From: Streptomyces netropsis
GTDB lineage: Bacteria; Actinomycetota; Actinomycetes; Streptomycetales; Streptomycetaceae
Direction of reading: 5' to 3'
Assembly (NCBI RefSeq): GCF_014203545.1
Contig: NZ_JACHJG010000005.1
Location: 383,726 to 447,725 of the forward strand
DNA length: 64,000 bases
Part shown: in pieces, positions 12,699 to 58,840 of the stretch
How positions within the stretch are numbered: the stretch's first letter is position 1
Layout: every line of letters starts with the position of its first letter
Position numbers and translations under genes: made by a program
Notes under the pieces: model-generated
The model's database searches: none
Told to the model about the DNA's origin: nothing
What the model saw: the letters and a program-made list of their open reading frames with translations, nothing else

Positions 12699-12716
12699 AT
12701 GTATTCGAACTTTGAG

Positions 12717-12787
12717 CTCCCGGGGAAGGAATCGAACCCTCATTCAATGGACCAAAACCATTTGTCCTGCCATTAGACGACCCGGGA
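12717..12787 (-). tRNA. tRNA-Gln (anticodon TTG)
   Basis: On the minus strand the acceptor TCCCGGG pairs with CCCGGGA. The D arm is GTCT/GGAC, the anticodon loop TTTTGGT (anticodon TTG, reads CAA), and the T arm GAGGG-TTCGATT-CCTTC, with discriminator G. No CCA is encoded. Its 5' end is only 11 nt from the stop of the upstream HTH gene on the same strand, so it may be co-transcribed with it. Confidence 0.93.
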
Positions 12788-23547: not shown

Positions 23548-24336
23548 GTGAAAACGGCTGTATCGATTCCCACGACCGGGGGCAGTGGAGGACATGCGGC
23601 CGTCGCGGCGAGGGCCCGTCAGGTCCTCAAGGCGTACGGCGCGGGGGAGACCCGGGTCGTCGCGCTCGACCACGTGGACGTGGACATCGCCCGTGGGCAG
23701 TTCACGGCCATCATGGGCCCCTCCGGCTCCGGCAAGTCGACGCTGATGCACTGCCTGGCCGGCCTCGACACCGTCACCTCCGGGCAGATATTCATCGACG
23801 AGACCGAGATCACCGGGCTCAAGGACAAGAAGCTCACCCAACTGCGCCGGGATCGGATCGGCTTCATCTTCCAGGCGTTCAACCTGCTGCCGACGCTGAA
23901 CGCCCTGGAGAACATCACGCTCCCCATGGACATCGCCGGCCGCAAGCCGGACCGGGCGTGGCTGGACCGCGTCGTGGAGACCGTGGGCCTCGCGGGCCGC
24001 CTCAAGCACCGGCCCAACCAGCTCTCCGGCGGCCAGCAGCAGCGCGTCGCCGTGGCCCGCGCGCTCGCCGCCCGGCCCGAGATCATCTTCGGTGACGAGC
24101 CCACCGGAAACCTGGACTCGCGGGCCGGCGCCGAGGTGCTGGGCTTCCTGCGCCGCTCGGTCGACGAGCTGGGCCAGACCATCGTCATGGTCACCCACGA
24201 CCCCGTGGCCGCCTCGTACGCGGACCGGGCACTGTTCCTGGCGGACGGGCGGATCGTGGACGAGATGTACCAGCCGACCGCCGACCTGGTCCTCGAGCGG
24301 ATGAAGCACTTCGACGCGCGCGGGCGGGTGTCGTGA
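23548..24336 (+). CDS. MacB-type ABC transporter ATP-binding protein
   Basis: 262-residue ATPase. Walker A GPSGSGKST (about 58), Q loop FIFQAFNLLPTLNALENITLPMD, signature LSGGQQQRVAVARALA, Walker B IIFGDEPTGNLDS, and H loop MVTHDPVAASYADR. This is the LolD/MacB/FtsE-like class that works with FtsX-domain permeases as a mechanotransmitter. GTG 23548 has CAGGAG seven bases upstream. Its stop overlaps the permease start as GTGA, so translation is coupled. Closely similar to the ATPase at 57565-58347. Confidence 0.95.
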   Translation: MKTAVSIPTTGGSGGHAAVAARARQVLKAYGAGETRVVALDHVDVDIARGQFTAIMGPSGSGKSTLMHCLAGLDTVTSGQIFIDETEITGLKDKKLTQLRRDRIGFIFQAFNLLPTLNALENITLPMDIAGRKPDRAWLDRVVETVGLAGRLKHRPNQLSGGQQQRVAVARALAARPEIIFGDEPTGNLDSRAGAEVLGFLRRSVDELGQTIVMVTHDPVAASYADRALFLADGRIVDEMYQPTADLVLERMKHFDARGRVS

Positions 24337-26894
24337 CCGTCCTCAAGACCTCGCTGCGCAACTTCGTCGCCCACAAGGGGCGCATGGCGCTGTCCGCCGT
24401 CGCGGTGCTGCTGTCGGTGGCGTTCGTCTGCGGCACGCTCGTCTTCACCGACACCATGAGCGCCACGTTCGACAAGCTCTTCGCCTCCACCGCCTCCGAC
24501 GTCAGCGTCGCCGCGCCGAAGAACGACAACGCCCAGCAGACCGGCAGGCCGCAGACCGTCCCCGCGTCGCTCCAGGCGAAGCTCGCCAAGGCCGACGGGG
24601 TCGCGAAGGTCGAACCGCACGCCACCAACCAGCAGATCACCGCCGCCGACGCGAAGAACAAGAACATCGGCCCCACGTCCGGCGCCCCCACCGTGGGCAC
24701 CAACTGGGACGACAGCCAGAAGAAGTCCGTCGACATCACCAGCGGCCACGAGCCGCGCGGCCCCACCGAGGTCGTCCTCGACTCCGACACCGCCGACAAG
24801 CACGGTCTGAAGCCGGGCGACACCCTGCGCGTGATGGCCGCCCCGGGCGACTTCAAGGTCACGATCATCGGTCTCGCCACGTACAAGACCACCAACCCGG
24901 GCGCGGCGATCCTCTACTTCGACACCGCGACCGCCCAGAGCAAGCTCCTCGGCACCACGACCGGCTACAGCGGCTACGGCCTGACGGCGGCCGCCGGGGT
25001 CAGCGACGAGCAGCTCAAGAAGAACGTCACCGCCGCCATCGGCACCGGCTACACCGTGCACACCGCCGCCGAGACGAAGGCGGAGAACAAGAAGGACGTC
25101 GGCTCCTTCCTCGACGTCATGAAGTACGCGCTGCTCGGCTTCGCCGGCATCGCCGTGCTCGTCGGCATCTTCCTCATCGTCAACACCTTCTCCATGCTGG
25201 TCGCCCAGCGCACCCGTGAGATCGGCCTGATGCGGGCCATCGGCTCCAGCCGCAAGCAGGTCAACCGGTCGGTGCTGGCCGAGGCGCTGCTCCTCGGCGT
25301 CGTCGGCTCGCTCCTCGGCATCGGCGGCGGTGTCGCCCTGGCCGTCGGGCTGATGGAACTCATGGGCTCCATGGGCATGAAGCTCGACACCTCCGAGCTG
25401 ACCATCAAGCCCACCACGCCGCTGATCGGCCTCGCGATCGGTGTCGTCGTCACCGTCCTCGCCGCCTACCTCCCCGCCCGCCGGGCCGGGAAGATCTCGC
25501 CCATGGCCGCCCTGCGCGACGCGGGAACCCCCGCCGACGGCAAGGCCGGCAAGGTGCGGGCCGCCATCGGCCTGCTGCTCACCGGCGCGGGCGCGGCCGC
25601 CCTCGTCGCGGGCGGCACGGCGGACCAGGCGTCGGCGGGCTCGGCGTTCCTGGGCCTGGGCGTGCTGCTGACCCTCGTCGGCTTCGTCGTCGTCGGTCCG
25701 CTGCTGGCCTCCGTCGTCGTCCGCGGCCTCAGCGTGGTCGTGCTGCGCCTCTTCGGCCCCGTCGGCCGCCTCGCCGAGCGCAACGCGCTGCGCAACCCGC
25801 GGCGTACGGGCGGCACGGCCTCCGCCCTGATGATCGGCCTCGCGCTCGTCGCCGCCCTCTCGGTGGTCGGCTCCTCCATGGTCGCCTCGGCCACGGACCA
25901 GCTCGACAAGTCGGTCGGCGCGGACTTCATCATCGGCGGCGACACCGGACCGCTCAGCCCCGCCATGGTCAAGGCCGTCAGGTCCGCGGACCACGTGGCG
26001 CACTTCACCGAGTACACCGGCGTCAACGCCAAGATCACCACCCCGGACGGCACGACCGCCACGGAACGGCTGACCGCGGCCACCCCGACCTACGCCCAGG
26101 ACCTGCGGATCGAAACGGTCCGGGGCAAGCTGTCGGACGCCTACGCCAAGGACGCCATGTCGGTGCCCGAGGGCTGGGCGAAGGACCACGGCGTCAAGCT
26201 GGGCGACCGGCTGACCGTCGCCATGGTCGACGGCCGGACGGCGAAGCTCAAGATCAACGCGATCACCACGGACGACACCACGTTCGACAAGGGCGCGATG
26301 TACACGGACATCGCCACCGCGAAGCGGTACCTCCCGGCGGACAAGGTCCCGGCGATCTCGATGATGTTCGCCAAGGCCGAGGACGGCCAGGCGAAGGAGG
26401 CGGCCGCGGCCCTGAAGGCGGCGGTGGAGGACTACCCGCAGATCGAGGTCCGTGACCAGGCCGACTACAAGGAGCTCATCAAGGGCCAGGTCGACCAGCT
26501 GCTCAACATGATCTACGGCCTGCTGGCCCTGGCCATCATCGTCGCGGTCCTGGGCGTCGTGAACACCCTCGCCCTGTCGGTCGTCGAGCGGACCCGCGAG
26601 ATCGGCCTGATGCGCGCCATCGGTCTCTCCCGCCGCCAGCTGCGCCGCATGATCCGTCTGGAGTCGGTGGTCATCGCCCTCTTCGGCGCCCTCCTGGGCC
26701 TCGGCCTCGGCATGGCGTGGGGCATGACGGCCCAGAAGCTGCTGGCCCTGCAGGGCCTGGGAATCCTGGAGATCCCCTGGCCGACGATCACCGCGGTCTT
26801 CCTCGGCTCGGCACTGGTGGGCCTGCTCGCCGCCCTGGTCCCGGCGTTCCGGGCGGGCCGGATGAACGTCCTGAACGCCATCGCGACGGACTGA
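24333..26894 (+). CDS. FtsX-domain ABC transporter permease (MacB-like)
   Basis: 853 residues. An N-terminal membrane helix (MALSAVAVLLSVAFVCGTLVFTDT) precedes a large extracytoplasmic MacB_PCD region (about 45-265). The first FtsX domain (about 270-395) contains VAQRTREIGLMRAIGSSRKQ; two central helices follow, then a second PCD-like region and a second FtsX domain (about 720-853) with VVERTREIGLMRAIGLSRRQ. The ending PAFRAGRMNVLNAIATD is typical. Substrate unknown; the family extrudes peptides, lipoproteins or antibiotics, or signals to wall hydrolases. Confidence 0.95.
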   Translation: MTVLKTSLRNFVAHKGRMALSAVAVLLSVAFVCGTLVFTDTMSATFDKLFASTASDVSVAAPKNDNAQQTGRPQTVPASLQAKLAKADGVAKVEPHATNQQITAADAKNKNIGPTSGAPTVGTNWDDSQKKSVDITSGHEPRGPTEVVLDSDTADKHGLKPGDTLRVMAAPGDFKVTIIGLATYKTTNPGAAILYFDTATAQSKLLGTTTGYSGYGLTAAAGVSDEQLKKNVTAAIGTGYTVHTAAETKAENKKDVGSFLDVMKYALLGFAGIAVLVGIFLIVNTFSMLVAQRTREIGLMRAIGSSRKQVNRSVLAEALLLGVVGSLLGIGGGVALAVGLMELMGSMGMKLDTSELTIKPTTPLIGLAIGVVVTVLAAYLPARRAGKISPMAALRDAGTPADGKAGKVRAAIGLLLTGAGAAALVAGGTADQASAGSAFLGLGVLLTLVGFVVVGPLLASVVVRGLSVVVLRLFGPVGRLAERNALRNPRRTGGTASALMIGLALVAALSVVGSSMVASATDQLDKSVGADFIIGGDTGPLSPAMVKAVRSADHVAHFTEYTGVNAKITTPDGTTATERLTAATPTYAQDLRIETVRGKLSDAYAKDAMSVPEGWAKDHGVKLGDRLTVAMVDGRTAKLKINAITTDDTTFDKGAMYTDIATAKRYLPADKVPAISMMFAKAEDGQAKEAAAALKAAVEDYPQIEVRDQADYKELIKGQVDQLLNMIYGLLALAIIVAVLGVVNTLALSVVERTREIGLMRAIGLSRRQLRRMIRLESVVIALFGALLGLGLGMAWGMTAQKLLALQGLGILEIPWPTITAVFLGSALVGLLAALVPAFRAGRMNVLNAIATD

Positions 26895-26910: not shown

Positions 26911-26955
26911 GACCCGGCCCGGACGCGCCACGGGGGTGCGCGTCCGGGCCGGGTC
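26911..26955 (+). terminator. Strong hairpin after the ABC operon
   Basis: Perfect 18-bp arms (26911-26928 and 26938-26955) with a 9-nt loop, followed by CTTTG. Confidence 0.85.
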
Positions 26956-27063
26956 CTTTGCGTGCGTGCGTGCGGTCGGTCCGTCGGAGGTCCGTGTCCG
27001 CCGTCCGGCCCATCCGGCACGATCGGTTGCCGTACGGTGATCGGGGCACCCTTGGGAGGACGT

Positions 27064-27423
27064 ATGACCACGCAGCCCGTTCACGACGGTGGGGCGCTGA
27101 TCCCCAGACCCGAGAAGACGTTCCCCGCGCTGCGGGCGGCCCTCGCGCAGGTCGCGCCGTCGCGGCTGGCGGAGATGACGACCGAGCGCGACACGGTCTT
27201 CACGATGGCCACCCAGTCCAACAGCTTCGGGCCGATCGCCATGTTCCAGCTCAAGTGGGCCACGGTGATCGAGATCGAGCGTTTCCCCGATGTCGCCCGG
27301 CGGCTGCGCGCGGCCGAGTACGCCGCCCAGACGCTGGACCACGAGGACCCGGCATGGCGGGCCGCCATGGACGACATCCGGCAGATCATGGACGGTGCCC
27401 GGGCGCAGGTCGCCGGTGGGTGA
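27064..27423 (+). CDS. DUF6247 family protein, possible antitoxin
   Basis: 119 residues with the pattern I associate with actinobacterial DUF6247: LIPRPEKTFPALRAALAQVAPSRLAEM, then a helix with FQLKWATVIEIERFPDVARRLRAAEYAAQ. No signal peptide or catalytic motif. ATG 27064 has GGAGG four bases upstream. The next gene starts 8 nt before its stop, so the two form a tight unit. The layout (a small helical protein followed by a small basic protein) recalls toxin-antitoxin pairs; this is inference. Confidence 0.7.
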   Translation: MTTQPVHDGGALIPRPEKTFPALRAALAQVAPSRLAEMTTERDTVFTMATQSNSFGPIAMFQLKWATVIEIERFPDVARRLRAAEYAAQTLDHEDPAWRAAMDDIRQIMDGARAQVAGG

Positions 27424-27679
27424 CTGGCACTGGGAGTACGACCCGGACCCGCGGCACGTCATCGGTGAGACGCCGAACCTCGCCTTCGTCGCGTTGGTGG
27501 AGGAGCGCGCGGACGAACTGGTACGGGCTGCGGCAGCGCTCTACCTGGACGGTGCCGCTCATCAGGGGGCCTCTCCCGGTCTGCGTGAGGAGGTCCTCCC
27601 GAACGGGATGTTCCAGTACCTGACGATCGTGCGGCAGCGGTGCCTGTACATCGTTCAGGTCACGCCGTGGCCGCTCTGA
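27416..27679 (+). CDS. Small protein coupled to DUF6247, possible RelE/ParE-like toxin
   Basis: 87 residues, overlapping the preceding gene. The order WEYDPDPRHVI...LVEERADELVRAAAALYLDG...GMFQYLTIVRQRCLYIVQVTPW gives a strand, two helices and then two or three beta strands, which is the RelE/ParE fold order, with Arg in the last strands. I do not recognise a named family. GTG 27416 is the only start after the previous reading frame with any site (AGGT). Function uncertain. Confidence 0.55.
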   Translation: MGDWHWEYDPDPRHVIGETPNLAFVALVEERADELVRAAAALYLDGAAHQGASPGLREEVLPNGMFQYLTIVRQRCLYIVQVTPWPL

Positions 27680-27871: not shown

Positions 27872-31395
<3,524 letters not shown>

Positions 31396-31402
<7 letters not shown>

Positions 31403-58755: not shown

Positions 58756-58840
58756 GCCCGGATGGTGGAATGCAGACACGGCGAGCTTAAACCTCGCTGG
58801 CCTTACGGCCGTGCCGGTTCGAGTCCGGTTCCGGGCACCA
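58756..58840 (+). tRNA. bldA: tRNA-Leu (anticodon TAA), bldA
   Basis: Acceptor GCCCGGA pairs with TCCGGGC, and the 3' CCA is encoded. The anticodon stem GCGAG/CTCGC encloses the loop CTTAAAC, so the anticodon is TAA and reads UUA. The variable arm (GGCC..GGCC type) marks a class II Leu tRNA. In Streptomyces this single UUA tRNA is bldA, needed for aerial growth and for many antibiotics because UUA codons sit in their regulatory genes. I noticed no in-frame TTA in the genes here, but did not check every codon. Confidence 0.96.

Follow-up and report, generated by a model that had tools for sequence, protein, structure and literature searches.

Two small, overlapping genes of Streptomyces netropsis, referred to here as ORF1 and ORF2, probably constitute a type II-like toxin-antitoxin module. 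In this module, a helical protein of a family whose function is unknown, DUF6247, would be paired with a protein that is acidic and divergent but related to the RelE/ParE toxins, and the module is likely of a kind that has not been described before. The genes lie within a stretch of 64,000 nucleotides that was analysed as a whole (the window), and they and their relatives exhibit pairing in the order ORF1-ORF2, overlap, purifying selection, a promoter-like element, a patchy, multi-copy distribution, one-sided decay and confident structural models. It is from these features that we infer toxicity, binding, neutralisation and target. In the mechanism that we propose, ORF1, a five-helix DUF6247-like protein, would be made first and serve as the antitoxin, with its translation coupled to that of ORF2 by the overlapping frames. 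ORF2, a divergent acidic member of the RelE/ParE fold, would be the toxin and would be held inactive by the binding of ORF1. A candidate for the contact is the N-terminal part of ORF1, which is extended and conserved (around P14, P16 and T19).

The two reading frames (Table 1) share eight nucleotides, just as an earlier note on this sequence had it, and this overlap suggests that translation of ORF1 and ORF2 may be coupled. Third-position GC is 0.93 in ORF1 and 0.85 in ORF2, and the median dN/dS values, from 15 comparisons among six orthologs, are 0.16 and 0.12, respectively, indicating that both genes are translated and are under purifying selection. A single copy of ORF2 is present in the 8.04-Mb S. 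netropsis assembly. The slot that contains the pair is bounded on the left by a gene that we take to encode an ABC-transporter permease and on the right by what is presumably mfd. A hairpin like the probable terminator of the upstream gene is also found at the empty site of genome G018 (L311). The window contains two tRNA genes, for tRNA-Gln (12716-12787) and tRNA-Leu (58756-58840), neither of which is near the pair.

Table 1. Features of the ORF1/ORF2 locus, in window coordinates
Feature	Position	Strand	Basis
Presumed ABC-transporter permease gene, left edge of slot	24333..26894	+	reading frame, relatives
Inverted repeat rich in G+C, probably terminating the ABC-transporter gene upstream	26913..26953	+	read from sequence
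Conserved block TTGCCGTACGGTGATC upstream of ORF1	27027..27042	+	kept in close relatives
Likely ribosome-binding site of ORF1	27053..27059	+	read from sequence
ORF1, 119 aa, ATG start, divergent DUF6247-like, proposed antitoxin	27064..27423	+	reading frame, model
ORF1/ORF2 frame overlap, 8 nt	27416..27423	+	read from sequence
ORF2, 87 aa, GTG start, RelE/ParE-like predicted fold, proposed toxin	27416..27679	+	reading frame, model
Presumed mfd (transcription-repair coupling factor), right edge of slot	27872..31402	+	reading frame, relatives

A survey of this slot that covered 30 of 58 mfd matches showed the pair at two loci (the window's own and that of G060), an ORF1 remnant at one, and neither gene at 27, with the ABC-transporter gene still in place at 18 of these 27, in one case as a weak match. 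ORF1 is situated near mfd without ORF2 in G031. In G055 (L321/L094), a decayed ORF1 lies beside mfd, where no ORF2 was found.

The pair is conserved, a point that the earlier note had proposed to check. Matches to ORF1 and ORF2 were found in 89 and 57 of 199 Streptomyces genomes, respectively, the latter in up to four copies each, and ORF2 was located directly downstream of an ORF1 match at 85 of its 88 places in these genomes, a count that used the best 136 of at least 150 ORF1 matches and left out 14 weaker ones and the rest. The pairing is far beyond chance. The 88 places represent 91 ORF2 matches, from which the second pieces of three split copies (in G060, G018 and G014) were omitted. Unpaired were L252, in which ORF2 is intact and lone, L253, in which both genes are damaged, and a match in G015 (E 0.008) that lacked profile support. 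Frame overlap is a trait of the family: across 91 pairs, damaged ones included, the start-to-stop overlap was 4 nt in 62 and 8 nt in 12, and across the 73 pairs with a full-length ORF2 these values were 56 and 9. In a second set, consisting of 80 record-titled loci and four plasmid loci, 86 of 88 ORF2 matches were paired by script and the remaining two on reading, as ORF1 of L142 crosses a scaffold gap and the call at L167 was an artefact of start choice. The 80 record-titled loci, 76 of them from Streptomyces, were found by one peptide pattern and represent the closer branch only. Finally, the distance matrices of ORF1 and ORF2 were correlated with r=0.85 over 86 pairs, the highest value among 2000 permutations being 0.09. 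Of the sequence sets, A4 comprised the window's own sequence and 74 of 76 available relatives (L146 and L210 were omitted as damaged), and A5 the window's own sequence and 77 relatives.

Decay of the pair is one-sided. In a census of 138 ORF1 loci, both genes were intact at 86, ORF2 was broken at 15 and absent at 26, a class that may be inflated because ORF2 is shorter and harder to detect, and ORF1 was broken or partial at 11; the pair of G079 (near 4548246) fell outside this census. Hence, an intact ORF1 was without an intact ORF2 at 41 of 127 loci. Because ORF1 is the longer gene, chance damage would be expected to strike it more often than ORF2. Conversely, only one intact ORF2 was without an adjacent ORF1 (L252), and the genome in question carries a related pair elsewhere. 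Two other loci that the script had scored as an intact ORF2 with a broken ORF1, L253 and L275, were found on reading to be damaged in both genes. A second ORF2 copy at L124 has no start, and ORF2 of L007 (G060) is intact by coverage, yet split over two frames. At L275, part of ORF1 continues in frame into ORF2, forming a fused remnant. With ORF2 almost never alone and ORF1 often outliving it, the toxin-antitoxin-like character that the earlier note had suggested is upheld as far as sequence can test it.

This asymmetry also bears upon the roles of the two genes. Either gene order is known among toxin-antitoxin systems, and nothing more specific than this favours a reversed arrangement, with ORF1 as the toxin and ORF2 as the antitoxin. 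The 41 loci with ORF1 and no intact ORF2, as against the single intact ORF2 without an adjacent ORF1, together with the location of the toxin-like fold in ORF2, make such a reversal very improbable, and we infer that ORF1 is the antitoxin.

A quick tree of the 127 intact ORF1 proteins, among them the doubtful ORF1 of L263 (branch 3.4), was used to map the losses. Labelling of these loci gave 86, 16 and 25 in the classes intact, broken and absent, with one locus differing in class from the census. The label 'intact' changed 32 times on this tree, with at least 20 of these changes forced by starred branches, and it was not clustered, as an equally low number of changes was obtained in 71 of 500 shuffles. 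The scattering of the changes implies that ORF2 has been lost many times. Common occurrence of DUF6247 without the second gene, together with a lack of toxicity on expression, was named in the earlier note as what would refute a module; such occurrence is seen in part, at the 41 loci described above, but these are scattered, and 15–16 of them keep remnants of ORF2, which fits repeated toxin loss, while 25–26 have no recognisable ORF2. Given the 26 intact ORF1 loci of the census without a recognisable ORF2, ORF1 may serve some function independent of its partner.

Repeated loss of ORF2 fits a toxin that is held in check by its neighbour. It fits a dependent accessory subunit equally well, because a subunit that is useless without its partner would also be lost one-sidedly. 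The main rival to a toxin-antitoxin module, and one that we consider unlikely, is a regulatory or enzymatic two-subunit pair, wherein ORF1 would do the work or provide the scaffold and a dependent ORF2, built upon a RelE-like fold, would be accessory to it. Retention of ORF1 without an intact ORF2 is consistent with such a pair, as are the acidic nature of ORF2, its lack of the ParE_toxin arginine (see below) and the precedent of Scr1/Scr2 (XRE-DUF397), which turned out to be a regulator. However, a distribution that is patchy, multi-copy, partly plasmid-borne and often decayed is unusual for a housekeeping regulator, and, according to Makarova 2009 (PMC2701414), toxins of the RelE fold do not seem to serve the cell in any other way.

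The toxin-antitoxin reading draws on the predicted structure of ORF2. Its AlphaFold2 model (pLDDT 91.3) has the element order E-H-H-E-E-E, which is that of RelE/ParE proteins. When this model was compared with known structures, the first 11 Foldseek matches were all toxin or toxin-antitoxin entries, although the best E value, 0.033, was weak, and the first 17 VIA-align matches were of the RelE/ParE/YoeB type by title, the 18th being the first with another title. The best VIA-align match, RelE 2kc8 (rmsd 3.8, 73 aligned), had a Z of 7.5, and values below 8 may, by the tool's own warning, reflect merely a common arrangement. By itself this score is weak, and it is the uniform list of folds together with a sequence bridge through a partner family of DUF6247 that carries the RelE/ParE case. 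In agreement with the earlier note, which knew no family for ORF2, searches of Pfam, NCBIfam, PADLOC and PHROGs with this protein gave no match. When 68 aligned members of its family were searched, no match below E 0.01 was obtained in Pfam or NCBIfam, and none of the 68 matched ParE_toxin (PF05016) at E<=1. Likewise, phmmer searches of solved structures with single proteins yielded nothing usable (single stretches were non-significant and mostly from repeat proteins), and direct comparison of the ORF2 profile with PF05016 proteins gave less than 1%.

The assignment of ORF1 to DUF6247 (PF19760) in the earlier note is correct at the level of the family and too strong for the window protein. The DUF6247 model matched 71 of 72 aligned members of the ORF1 family, the window included, at E<=1 (best 1.8e-9), and comparison of the ORF1 family profile with DUF6247 proper gave 97.7% (E 2.1e-12), whereas ORF1 of the window scored 12.9 bits (E 0.13) and did not reach the Pfam gathering cut-off of 26.9. 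We therefore term it DUF6247-like, a divergent sister of the family. The predicted model of ORF1 (pLDDT 93.1) consists of five helices that follow the extended, conserved N-terminal stretch. Fold searches with this model gave weak helical matches with Foldseek (best E 2.1) and an uninformative best match with VIA-align (Z 5.5 over 42-44 residues), and such weak matches do not amount to the demonstration of a new fold. A weak match (E 0.39) that a profile search with ORF1 gave to RelJ, an antitoxin, was discarded as chance. No mention of DUF6247 or PF19760 was found in the literature searched.

The bridge from ORF2 to known toxins passes through DUF6247 proper, for which the Pfam model gave matches in 48 of 296 actinomycete genomes. 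Of 30 such loci that were read, 17 encode a protein of 76-87 aa whose start coincides with, or lies close to, the DUF6247 stop; 11 had no frame of fitting length downstream, some of them with visible remnants, and two script candidates (L237 and L248) were dropped by eye. The 17 partner proteins, chosen for their position behind DUF6247, were used to build the A6 profile. The first matches of this profile were solved RelE and YoeB-type toxins (E 0.0013-0.0088), and its comparison with Streptomyces PF05016 proteins gave 91.2%. Six of the 17 members matched ParE_toxin (best 0.0033), and one matched the PHROG 'RelE-like toxin' at 0.018. Comparison of the ORF2 profile with A6, in turn, gave 95.6% (E 1.2e-8), with values of 0.2-0.3% for cross controls against unrelated profiles. 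Thus, ORF2 appears to be linked to PF05016 indirectly, through A6, and this profile match, the model and the fold comparison all agree with the RelE/ParE likeness that the earlier note had proposed for the second gene. When A6 was searched back in these genomes, 39 of its 47 matches immediately followed a PF19760 match; the 47 include the 17 founders, which are paired by construction, and without them 22 of 30 remain as independent cases. Seen from the other side, 39 of 79 PF19760 matches have an A6 match next downstream.

What distinguishes ORF2 from its better known relatives is charge and a changed arginine position. The median pI of the ORF2 family is 4.8 (68 members) and that of A6, also acidic, is 5.0, versus 9.6 for 16 stretches that match PF05016 in this genus. 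The PF05016 proteins of Streptomyces share an invariant arginine (R54 of A8), which in chained alignments (ORF2-A6-A8) corresponds to M65 of ORF2; a second invariant arginine, R74 near the end, is not covered by these alignments. Given its acidity and the change at the first arginine, ORF2 is unlikely to be an RNase that binds the ribosome in the manner of RelE; it more likely acts on a protein, like ParE on gyrase, or on some other target. The same two properties would also suit a module that was once a toxin-antitoxin system, has lost the activity of its toxin in this branch and is kept for regulation or for the neutralisation of related incoming toxins, and the many intact ORF1 genes next to a broken ORF2 could then act as free anti-toxins. 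We regard this as improbable, because purifying selection on ORF2 is as strong as that on ORF1 in the close clade (dN/dS 0.12) and the two proteins diverge in step, which argue that ORF2 still does something.

Upstream of ORF1, a TANNNT element is present 20-48 nt before the start codon in 68% of 173 homologs, compared to 12% in a control stretch. In the window, a −10-like TACGGT (27033-27038) lies inside the conserved block TTGCCGTACGGTGATC, which also contains the palindrome CCGTACGG. This block is kept in L141, L143, L144 and L148, whose DNA further upstream differs by eye, and with its palindrome it is seen in a close clade (10 of the 173 upstream stretches). The genome contains one exact copy of TTGCCGTACGGTGATC and seven more with one or two mismatches. 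No DNA-binding fold was recognised in ORF1 by the Foldseek and VIA-align searches with its model. At four loci (L105, L119, L095 and L218), a gene of approximately 90 aa lies upstream of ORF1 and ends 4 nt inside the ORF1 start; its product has a stretch that by eye looks like a helix-turn-helix, for which Pfam gave no confirmation. Judged by this appearance, the gene could encode a third, DNA-binding component of the module. A broader proposal, which we offer tentatively and think less probable than not, is that DUF6247 and its Streptomyces sister represent a class of ordered five-helix antitoxins without a DNA-binding domain, that their acidic RelE/ParE partners lack the RNA-cleaving site and act upon another target, possibly a protein, and that in some branches the third gene upstream binds DNA.

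ORF2 relatives were found in nine plasmid records, eight of which are predicted to be non-mobilizable. In each of the six records that were opened, ORF1 lay directly upstream, and ORF2 was broken in one. One pair, on a Kitasatospora plasmid, is next to a gene that carries the annotation PemK/MazF toxin. No relative was found in phage records and none was confirmed in viral contigs, so that a phage origin is not supported. A few loci carry other genes of interest alongside ORF1. At L071, an ORF1 homolog without ORF2 adjoins a downstream gene for a putative Uma2-type endonuclease (Pfam Uma2, 2.1e-8), and at L064, a similarly unaccompanied ORF1 homolog has a Uma2-type gene upstream, by resemblance only. 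At L015 (1804-2191), an intact pair is followed by a DUF6247-like start in frame with what by eye looks like a Phd/YefM antitoxin and then by a gene that likewise resembles RelE by eye, an arrangement that gives the impression of two toxin-antitoxin units fused together. Corrections made for the A6 founders, plasmid mobility and dropped matches leave our estimate of the odds of a toxin-antitoxin module unchanged.

Our studies provide a testable function for DUF6247, a Pfam family of unknown function, and name a partner protein that four family libraries miss. If ORF2 is toxic, the pair would represent a widespread actinobacterial toxin-antitoxin family that is so far undescribed, and an acidic toxin would raise the question of further targets for the RelE/ParE fold. 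The presence of up to four copies in some Streptomyces also matters for the engineering of antibiotic producers.

Other small gene pairs of these bacteria invite comparison. Orf2769/Orf2770 of Streptomyces sp. SCSIO 02999, which was toxic and rescued in E. coli according to its description (PMC6521030), is, like ORF1/ORF2, a small Streptomyces pair of an undescribed kind and without a Pfam domain. It encodes proteins of 90 and 83 aa with the toxin gene first, and by these gene lengths and this order only, it was set apart as a different system. The XRE-DUF397 pair is likewise a conserved actinobacterial pair that was predicted to be a toxin-antitoxin system, a likeness to ORF1/ORF2 that is by description only; its Streptomyces representative Scr1/Scr2 was not toxic and behaved as a regulator in experiments, as reported in that study (PMC6262351). 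With the type II systems RelBE and ParDE, ORF1/ORF2 has in common two small genes with overlapping frames, the known or proposed antitoxin gene first, and a patchy, partly plasmid-borne distribution, and ORF2 resembles their toxins in its length of about 87 aa and its predicted strand-helix-helix-three-strand order. Unlike these toxins, ORF2 is acidic, is without the invariant arginine and is missed by the PF05016 profile, and in place of their antitoxins stands an ordered helical protein with no recognised DNA-binding domain. A further close counterpart is DUF6247 itself, with which the ORF1 family shares homology even though the window protein remains below the cut-off of the model; the gene for DUF6247 proper is often the first of two, the second encoding a RelE-like protein, just as ORF1 precedes ORF2.
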